This document shows positions 56,548-59,163 of a stretch of 64,000 nucleotides of DNA, in pieces; the stretch's first letter is position 1, and each line of letters begins with the position of its first letter. Source of the DNA: an uncultured Rhodospirillales bacterium. Lineage in GTDB: Bacteria > Pseudomonadota > Alphaproteobacteria > ATCC43930 > CGMCC-115725. Below the pieces are notes generated by a model. The model did not search any database. It was not told the origin of the DNA and saw only the letters and a program-made list of their open reading frames with translations. A program made the translations under genes and the position numbers. Location of the stretch: the NCBI GenBank assembly GCA_903822185.1, contig CAIJOA010000026.1:1-64000 (forward strand), given 5' to 3'.

Positions 56548-57603
56548 TCAATTCCAAACCGACTTGCCGCTCGCGTCTTTGATTTCCTTCTTCCAGCTGT
56601 CCTGGATCACCGGAACAACCGCGGCCGGCATCGCGACGTAAGCGAGCGGGTCGGCCATCGGCTTGCCGTTCTTGTAGGCCCAATCGAAGAACTTCAGGAC
56701 CTGTGCCGAATTTTCGGCCTTATCGGTCTTCACCTGCATCAGCGCCCAGGTCGTGGCCGTGATCGGCCAGGAATTGTCGCCGACTTGGTCGGTGATGACG
56801 AGGTTGAAGCCCGGCGCGCTCTTCCAATCGGCATTGGCCGCGGCCGCTGCGAAAGTCTCGAGGCTCGGCATCATCGTCTTGCCGTTCTTGTTGACCAGCT
56901 TGGTGAAGGCGAGGTTGTTCTGGAGGGCGTAGGCATATTCGACATAGCCGATCGCACCCTGGGTGCGGGCCGCGAGCGCCGCGACGCCTTCGTTACCCTT
57001 GCCGCCGAGACCCGAGACCGGCCATTCGACCGCGGTATCTTCGCCGACTTTGTCGCGCCATTCCGCGCTGACCTTCGAGAGATAGTCGGTGAAGTTGAAG
57101 GTCGTGCCCGACCCGTCCGAGCGATGAACGACGGCGATATCGAGCGCCGGCAGCTTCACGCCGGGGTTGAGTTTGGCGATCGCCACGTCATCCCACTTGG
57201 TGATCTTGCCGAGATACATATTGGCGAGCGTCGCGCCATCGAGGGTCAGTTGACCCTTTTCGATGCCGGGGAGGTTCACCAGGACGACGACGCCGCCCAT
57301 GATGAACGGGAACTGGGTCAGACCGTTCTTCTGCAGGTCAGCCGCGCTGAGCGGCTTGTCGGTCGCGCCGAAATCGACGGTCTTGGCTTCGATCTGATTG
57401 ATGCCGCCGCCCGAGCCGATCGACTGGTAGTTGAGGCTGGAACCGGTTGCGGCCTTATAGCTCTCGGCCCACTTCGCGAGGATCGGATAGGCGAAGGTCG
57501 AGCCCGCGCCGGTCATTTCCGCCGCGTTGGCGGCATGCGCCGCGACAAGCCCGATGACGGCTACCGAAGCAGCCCGCAACATCGTGCGTCCCAAGTTTCT
57601 CAT
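56548..57603 (-). CDS. pstS: phosphate ABC transporter substrate-binding protein PstS
   Basis: 351 residues with a signal peptide (MRNLGRTMLRAASVAVIGLV...ANA). The mature sequence starts AEMTGAGSTFAYPILAKWAE, a PstS hallmark; phosphate-binding loops are GAGSTF, QSIGSGGGINQIEAK and HRSDGSGTTFNFTDYL. CAGGAG precedes the ATG by 7 nt. pstC, pstA, pstB and phoU are not in the window, so this is a stand-alone pstS copy. Four Pho half-sites lie 75-113 nt upstream of the start and imply PhoB control. Confidence 0.96.
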   Translation of the reverse strand: MRNLGRTMLRAASVAVIGLVAAHAANAAEMTGAGSTFAYPILAKWAESYKAATGSSLNYQSIGSGGGINQIEAKTVDFGATDKPLSAADLQKNGLTQFPFIMGGVVVLVNLPGIEKGQLTLDGATLANMYLGKITKWDDVAIAKLNPGVKLPALDIAVVHRSDGSGTTFNFTDYLSKVSAEWRDKVGEDTAVEWPVSGLGGKGNEGVAALAARTQGAIGYVEYAYALQNNLAFTKLVNKNGKTMMPSLETFAAAAANADWKSAPGFNLVITDQVGDNSWPITATTWALMQVKTDKAENSAQVLKFFDWAYKNGKPMADPLAYVAMPAAVVPVIQDSWKKEIKDASGKSVWN

Positions 57604-57716: not shown

Positions 57717-58107
57717 CATATCCCCGGAGGCTCCGGCCGCGCCGGTAGCGCGGATCGCCTCTCTATCCTGGTAGGAGATCGACCCGCCGGCCTCGGACGA
57801 GACTTGTAGAGGAGTCGAAATGGAATTGAGATGAAGCCGACAACAAATTCGCGGCACTTCATCGCGCCGTCGATAATCATTCAATCGATCCGCCGCCGGG
57901 CGTAAATCCACGCAGAAGAATGATCGGCGAATTTGTTTTCGACTATCGCGCTACTCGTCAACAACGCCTCGAGAGGGTGTTCGGAGTCGTTTCTCCACAC
58001 GGCCACATCTAGCCCGATGACGTTCTTGCTACACAAATTCTGGGGGTGATGGTAAATTTTAAATGCGGGCGGTGCATTGGATGGGCCGATGCAGAGCCCC
58101 TCGTTCA
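57717..58107. other. gene-poor spacer between PHO boxes and the lysine-rich peptide gene
   Basis: No supported gene. A minus-strand frame from 57881 to 58216 is antisense to the lysine-rich peptide and has no SD. The promoter of the peptide gene is expected here; TTGCTA at 58026 and TAAATT at 58053 are possible but poorly spaced elements. Confidence 0.45.
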
Positions 58108-58120
58108 GAGGAAAGCCATC

Positions 58121-58189
58121 ATGGCAGCAAAGAAAAAGGCTAAGAAGGTTGTGAAGAAGAAGAAGGCCGCGAAGAAGAAAAAGAAGTAG
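58121..58189 (+). CDS. 22-residue lysine-rich micro-protein
   Basis: An open frame of 22 codons: MAAKKKAKKVVKKKK followed by AAKKKKK. It is about 70% lysine with Ala/Val interruptions. GAGGA lies exactly 8 nt before the ATG, and two strong hairpins follow, so it reads as a complete transcription unit. The composition resembles the basic C-terminal tails of histone H1-like, AlgP-type and Hc-like bacterial nucleoid proteins, but here there is no other domain. Binding to DNA, RNA or polyphosphate is plausible and untested. It lies in the same interval as two Pho-type elements. No annotated homologue is recalled. Confidence 0.6.
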   Translation: MAAKKKAKKVVKKKKAAKKKKK

Positions 58190-58216
58190 TCTTCTTTCTT
58201 CTAGCTTTCTACCCAT

Positions 58217-58261
58217 GGTGGGGCTGCTTCCGAGTCGATAAAACTCAGAGGCAGCCCCACC
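58217..58261 (+). terminator. stem-loop after the lysine-rich peptide gene
   Basis: GGTGGGGCTGC...GCAGCCCCACC is a perfect 11-bp outer stem, with a partly paired inner GAGT/ACTC. It is followed by AACCTTTTGG. It lies 28 nt after the TAG of the peptide gene and probably works with the next hairpin. Confidence 0.8.
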
Positions 58262-58271
58262 AACCTTTTGG

Positions 58272-58298
58272 AGCCTCGTTTTTCTTCAAAACGAGGCT
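58272..58298 (+). terminator. intrinsic terminator, second hairpin
   Basis: AGCCTCGTTTT-TCTTC-AAAACGAGGCT is a perfect 11-bp stem, followed by AAATTTTTGCC. A classical Rho-independent terminator for the transcript with the lysine-rich peptide. Confidence 0.88.
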
Positions 58299-58348: not shown

Positions 58349-58366
58349 TTGACAGTGCTGTGACAG
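58349..58366 (-). promoter_or_regulatory. PHO-box-like element, unassigned target
   Basis: On the minus strand it reads CTGTCAC-AGCA-CTGTCAA, two 7-mers 11 bp apart, close to the CTGTCAT-N4-CTGTCAT consensus. No gene lies immediately downstream on either strand. On the plus strand a terminator-ended interval follows (58375-58442). Confidence 0.55.
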
Positions 58367-58442: not shown

Positions 58443-59163
58443 AATCACGGCTTTCTTTATCCATTGATATTGAAACATCGACGCATATTGCACCACGCAA
58501 TACGCCTGACGTCTCCTCCATCGCACCCGATGCACGGCGCAATGAGGATGATCGACTCATTAAGGCGATCGCATCCTGCTGCATGTGAATGACGAACCTC
58601 GCGATCGCAATCGAGCCCACGACGCCGGCAACAGCACCGTCGCTTCGTCGCGCCATCGGATCGTCGGCGTCCCGCCGCGCCGCTTCTAGATCATCGCGCG
58701 CGACGAAAAACGATCGCGCGACGGATCACGCGATCCTATTTTTGAATCGCACCGCGCGGCGGCGTGTTTCCCCCGATTTTCGCGACTCGCGGGGGAAATT
58801 GGATTTTCGGACCCGCGAATGCGATCCGCGGATCGGCGCGTGAGCGTCATCGCATGCGCGTCGATCGATGCGATGCGTCACCCCAACGACGCTCGCTACC
58901 GCCGAGTTTGGAAACCGCAACGCTATCGGACTGAAGTTGCGTGATCGCGCACGCTGCTGCGATCGCTCTTGTTTGGATTTACGAAAGCCGTGTGCGTCAT
59001 CACGCGCGATGTCGGACATCGTCTTCGCGGCGCCCGTAGAGGTGTGATCGTTATGCAACAGTACGAACTACGCGTGAAATCGAATTCGATGATGCGGCGG
59101 CGCGATGAAGAATGCGAAGAGTCGATGCGGCGGTCGTCGCAGCGCGCCACATATATAAAGAGA
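58443..59163. other. ~720-bp region without recognisable genes
   Basis: Short frames of 60-100 codons exist on both strands but are Arg/Ser-rich and lack SD sites. A 9-bp hairpin TTTCCCCCG...CGGGGGAAA is at 58767-58798. Short palindromes such as GCGATCGC and TCGATCGA are common. No tRNA, RNase P, SRP or tmRNA motif was found. Confidence 0.5.

Follow-up and report, generated by a model that had tools for sequence, protein, structure and literature searches.

A conserved lysine-rich micro-gene upstream of pstS and its look-alikes in Alphaproteobacteria: candidates for minimal polyanion-coating peptides

A lysine-rich frame upstream of pstS

Upstream of pstS, in the window (the whole 64-kb stretch of DNA analyzed here), lies a frame of 22 codons, most of them for lysine, which raises the question of whether so short and biased a sequence is a gene and, if it is, what a peptide of this kind would do in the cell. 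The first-pass annotation of the locus had described a 22-residue Lys/Ala/Val frame of about 70% lysine, preceded by its own Shine-Dalgarno sequence GAGGA. Both the frame and the GAGGA motif were found where it had placed them (Table 1), but the lysine count is lower, 14 of 22 residues (64%). The remainder of the peptide MAAKKKAKKVVKKKKAAKKKKK consists of five alanines, two valines, and one methionine, with no acidic, aromatic, or strongly hydrophobic residues and no arginine, which gives a net charge of approximately +14. Of the lysine codons, 12 are AAG and 2 are AAA. No other short ORF in the window reaches 45% lysine, and none appeared in 20 random windows generated with a first-order Markov model.

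Table 1. Coordinates of the micro-gene, its neighboring elements, and related features in the second genus (g8)
Feature	Position	Strand	Remarks
pstS (phosphate ABC transporter substrate-binding protein)	56551..57603	-	divergent neighbor
DnaA-like box TTCTCCACA	57991..57999	+	DnaA box TTATCCACA with one mismatch
Upstream block, presumed promoter region	58008..58066	+	GCTRYACWAWAT and RTGNTA motifs align in 5 genomes
5' leader hairpin TGCATTGGATGGGCCGATGCA	58073..58093	+	conserved, pairs covary
Shine-Dalgarno GAGGA	58108..58112	+	8 nt 5' of the ATG at 58121
Micro-ORF MAAKKKAKKVVKKKKAAKKKKK	58121..58189	+	22 aa, stop TAG
Terminator hairpin 1 (T1)	58216..58262	+	TTTT follows
Hairpin 2 (T2)	58272..58298	+	perfect 11-bp stem, loop of 5, T tail
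g8 paralogues	G017:C406 (L007/L161), G022:C270 (L200), G008:C234 (L201)		
mmgR in g8	L156:7832-7903, L157:6457-6528, L158:3850-3922, L199:1681-1752		

Conservation in two genera

A covariance model built from the leader hairpin, the frame, and T1 found the gene in both genomes of the genus (2/2) and in all four of a second genus, g8 (4/4). All six copies were recovered with E values from 6e-50 to 1e-41, and the next matches, mostly other K-rich frames, had E values of about 1e-8 or weaker. In the sister species (G001) the gene occupies the corresponding position, with pstS on one side and rpmB on the other, and lies in a block that is 75% identical and is bounded on both sides by intergenic sequence that cannot be aligned; the peptide there is MAAKKKAKKKAKKAKKKKK. 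Three of the g8 genomes code for MAAKKKAKAKPAKRAAKKKK, MVAKKKAKPVKKTAKRKKK, and MAAKKKAKPAKKTAKRKKK on the strand opposite to pstS and upstream of it, while the contig with the fourth copy ends before pstS, where the linkage is not visible. The divergent arrangement is kept in the two genera wherever the flank can be seen.

The six peptides are 19, 20, or 22 residues long, with indels of whole codons, and their pairwise differences at codon positions 1, 2, and 3 number 50, 47, and 110, respectively. The combination of whole-codon indels and a third-position excess is the mark of a translated frame. The first-pass annotation had proposed a search of related genomes for conserved short frames with the same hairpins; the frame is kept in six genomes of two genera, and T1 with it, but T2 is not. 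Simpler DNA searches were less productive, since a strict pattern for the start of the ORF, run across the order, was too narrow and matched in the genus only, and a pattern with five terminal lysines gave no relevant match across the class. Judged by its sequence, 58121-58189 is a real, previously unlisted micro-gene with its own signals.

Leader and terminator structures

The two hairpins downstream had been described as perfect 11-bp stems forming a double terminator. This is exactly right for T2, which carries a T tail and is followed by AAATTTTT, but T1 is longer: its minimum free energy fold has 15 pairs, a mismatch, and 4 more pairs, with 20-nt arms that are 90% complementary. Both hairpins are present in the window, but they are not kept as a unit, because T2 is not conserved in the sister species and T1 alone is. 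The T1 stem (GGGGCTGCT/GCAGCCCC) is nearly identical in the two genera and shows compensatory changes, whereas the flanks diverge. A 211-nt region of the locus folds with a z score of -7.3 against dinucleotide shuffles. Across the six copies, 93% of the cells in the leader hairpin and T1 are paired (85.5% in shuffles), and 13 cells have changed on both sides (4.2 in shuffles, with 0 of 500 as high), far more than in any slid version. No sigma-70 consensus promoter was matched upstream of the micro-ORF, and the promoter presumably lies among the aligned upstream motifs.

Stems conserved beyond the needs of a plain terminator could mean that the RNA is the functional product, a terminator-bounded structured sRNA (leader hairpin plus T1) acting by base-pairing; the peptide would then be either incidental or an additional product. 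We consider this unlikely, given that the frame has the third-position excess and the whole-codon length changes described above, that no Rfam family covers the RNA at gathering score, and that the leaders and terminators of look-alikes in other families (see below) are unrelated to those of the window gene, which makes the peptide, not the RNA, the common factor.

Look-alikes in other Alphaproteobacteria

Scanning the class with a DNA pattern revealed free-standing K-rich micro-ORFs of the same start and style in three other alphaproteobacterial families, with unrelated neighbors. These look-alikes code for 16 to 26 amino acids, all with a strong Shine-Dalgarno sequence of their own and most with an obvious terminator. 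Two of them, MAAKKKAKKVAKKKTAKKKKKK and MPMAAKKKAKKKAPAKKKAKKAKKKK, belong to two species of one genus and follow gatA-gatB in both; MAAKKKAKKKTAKKKK and MAAKKKAKKKAAKKKK, from two genera of one family, are near a NUDIX gene, one of them after ftsY; and MAAKKKAKKAPAKKPAKKKAKKK is near a frame that we read by eye as rpoD. Among named genomes, the pattern matched in Bradyrhizobium neotropicale, where the look-alike is MAKKAKKAAKKKAKKAKKAKKK. A DNA search at ≥80% identity recovered this sequence and its variants at 21 loci, corresponding to all the Bradyrhizobium genomes searched plus one alphaproteobacterial metagenome-assembled genome (MAG), and at 21/21 the frame, of around 20 to 24 residues, is kept and has its own Shine-Dalgarno sequence; for the MAKKAKKAAKKK version, Bradyrhizobium diazoefficiens would be a practical host. 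Differences in the Bradyrhizobium frame are spread over codon positions 1, 2, and 3 as 359, 379, and 392, with no clear third-position excess, perhaps because indels of repeat units confuse the alignment. In Bradyrhizobium and a related MAG, the neighbors of the K-peptide gene are a GGDEF gene and one for an amino-acid exporter of the LysE/RhtB type (L261:875-1486, L264).

The exact MA-X-KKKAKK start was found in no other genome of a phylum sample of 397 genomes and is therefore restricted. A protein profile search over 43 genomes missed even the copy in the window as a consequence of composition bias, and it neither supports nor excludes wider homology. Pfam (E ≤ 10) and NCBIfam gave nothing convincing for the peptide or its look-alikes, the look-alike loci fall in no Rfam family, and a literature search of open-licence papers returned none with the sequence MAAKKKAKK. 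The look-alikes of different families are alike in composition and style but too short and biased to prove common descent, and they may be one family or repeated inventions. What all the copies have in common is composition, charge, a Shine-Dalgarno sequence and, mostly, a terminator, but not the neighbor.

A putative free-standing polycation

We infer that the micro-gene is transcribed independently and translated into an intrinsically disordered, purely cationic Lys/Ala(/Val) polycation. Such a peptide would coat and neutralize cellular polyanions by charge alone, RNA or DNA in the first place, acting like a histone H1-type tail devoid of a folded domain. That all the copies share composition and charge, and not a neighbor, fits charge being the function. 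We give a probability of roughly 0.55 to this reading, a real and independently transcribed micro-gene for a free-standing, polyanion-coating polycation peptide. Binding to nucleic acid, and the target itself, we infer from composition; as the peptide has no acidic or strongly hydrophobic residues to tell targets apart, the candidates include RNA, DNA, polyphosphate, acidic protein, and membrane.

The likeness to histone H1-like tails proposed by the first-pass annotation holds for the low-complexity Lys/Ala composition. The tails of AlgP and PhaF of Pseudomonas and the Hc1/Hc2 proteins of Chlamydia have the same Lys/Ala make-up, for which disorder and polyanion binding are expected. However, these are long Lys-rich tails or proteins, usually with a long repeat tail and a separate N-terminal domain (in AlgP, the N-terminal domain is helical and 124 aa long, and the region of KPAA repeats spans 154 aa [PMC9239181]), while the K-peptide is in all 22 aa long, free, and encoded by its own gene. 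The window copy also has no proline, in contrast to the Lys/Ala/Pro composition of H1-like tails. Another comparison is with the DUF1127 proteins (SDPs, CcaF1, YjiS), likewise small, basic, and common in Alphaproteobacteria, some of which have a role in phosphate uptake, acting on PhoR, and one of which binds RNA (PMC12501420). These are Arg-rich, often under 50 aa, and have two predicted helices, whereas the 22-aa K-peptide is free of arginine; with no Pfam match at E ≤ 10 either, membership in DUF1127 was rejected.

From the recurrence of look-alikes we suspect that a class of minimal peptides that coat nucleic acid has been overlooked. In its boldest form, which we advance as speculation with the odds clearly against it, the class of 16- to 26-residue Lys/Ala microproteins in several alphaproteobacterial families and in every Bradyrhizobium genome searched would be the smallest genetically encoded bacterial nucleic-acid coat of the histone-tail or protamine kind; in two or more lineages, a DnaA box upstream would link it to the cell cycle. 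The exact box (TTATCCACA/TGTGGATAA) is found in the sister species at -130 (L047), the same position as the window copy, and at about -145 from the ATG in 21/21 Bradyrhizobium-type loci (L247-L267), and is absent in g8 and most other families tested. A regulatory role for this motif, which was spotted post hoc, is a lead only.

K-peptides of this size are under the limits of gene callers and are lost to low-complexity filters, and trypsin or Lys-C should destroy them in proteomics, so that all three routes could have missed a class that is conserved and possibly abundant. If the binding to nucleic acid or polyphosphate is true, they would be natural minimal polycations and a probe of charge-only chromatin or condensate behavior. 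Bradyrhizobium is a group in which the question is directly testable.

Phosphate and other readings

The divergent linkage to pstS in two genera is consistent with a role in phosphate physiology, the peptide acting as a coat of polyphosphate or as a tuner of PhoR/PhoB signaling. There are precedents for both, since the K/A/P tail of AlgP is needed for the spacing of polyphosphate granules (PMC9239181) and DUF1127 proteins act on PhoR (PMC12501420). By analogy, polyphosphate is a possible bound polyanion. The first-pass annotation had suggested polyphosphate from the position of the gene between two Pho-type elements, and the adjacency to pstS does extend to two genera, but the Pho-like box at 58350-58365 is missing in the sister species. 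This box also lies beyond the gene, and no conserved Pho box was found at the micro-gene promoter; the pstS-proximal repeats, which face pstS, are separated from the ORF by some 400 bp. Membership in the Pho regulon was rejected on these grounds. Furthermore, none of 80 named pstS loci of other taxa has a K-rich micro-ORF nearby, and outside the two genera the look-alikes adjoin gatB, ftsY/NUDIX, rpoD, or the LysE-type exporter and GGDEF genes. The case for phosphate is weak, and we regard it as quite unlikely.

A peptide bound to the ribosome and stabilizing rRNA, comparable with the small 30S peptide bTHX, would suit the size and charge as well as a gene that is led by a Shine-Dalgarno sequence and bounded by a terminator. 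Nevertheless, what is kept is mostly charge, with no fixed motif as would be expected for a defined rRNA pocket, and no family match was obtained, which makes this reading improbable.

Fourteen lysine codons followed by hairpins also recall the leader peptides of attenuators, likewise short frames rich in one residue, in which the codons would act as a sensor of lysyl-tRNA that controls the operon downstream. However, attenuator leaders control the gene that follows, whereas here the hairpins end a stand-alone unit, the frame and terminator being conserved together. On the 3' side rpmB and an ABC transporter are both on the minus strand, and in g8 the next protein gene is likewise on the other strand; with no co-directional gene to control, lysine attenuation was rejected as highly improbable. 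Finally, an accidental frame in a chance purine-rich (AAG)n tract, an idea favored by the low complexity and the uninformative protein-level searches, is refuted by the frame, Shine-Dalgarno sequence, start, and stop kept in six genomes, in addition to the uniqueness of the micro-ORF in the window and its absence from random ones, and its probability is negligible.

Other elements around the gene and related proteins

The sequence at 58350-58365 is a perfect 11-nt-phased TGACA repeat, the only one in the window, and has the orientation of a promoter on the minus strand, from which transcription toward pstS would run antisense to the K-peptide gene. Further on, a non-conserved intergenic stretch between the K-peptide and rpmB (58500-58960) is full of short GATCGCG-like palindromes.

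The alphaproteobacterial RNA mmgR (RF00519), a granule regulator, was found in neither the window nor the sister species. All four g8 genomes (4/4) have it 0.3 to 1.9 kb downstream of the K-peptide gene, on the same strand (Table 1). The occurrence of mmgR in a sister genus of the same family, along with the named relatives of the proteins, suggests that the window is alphaproteobacterial. There is also a second K-peptide paralogue in g8 (MAAKKKAAKKKPAKKAAKKR, MAKAKKAAKKKPAAKKVAKKK, and MAAKKKAAKKKPAAKKPAKRK), each followed by a GC-rich hairpin. The genome of the window itself (G000) codes for a longer H1-like K/A-rich protein of 61 to 74 aa (L193, G000:C15, about 936-1160), and a second K/A-rich H1-like protein starts with MAAKKKAKKKTVAKK before a larger frame (L033, G000:C14:67226).
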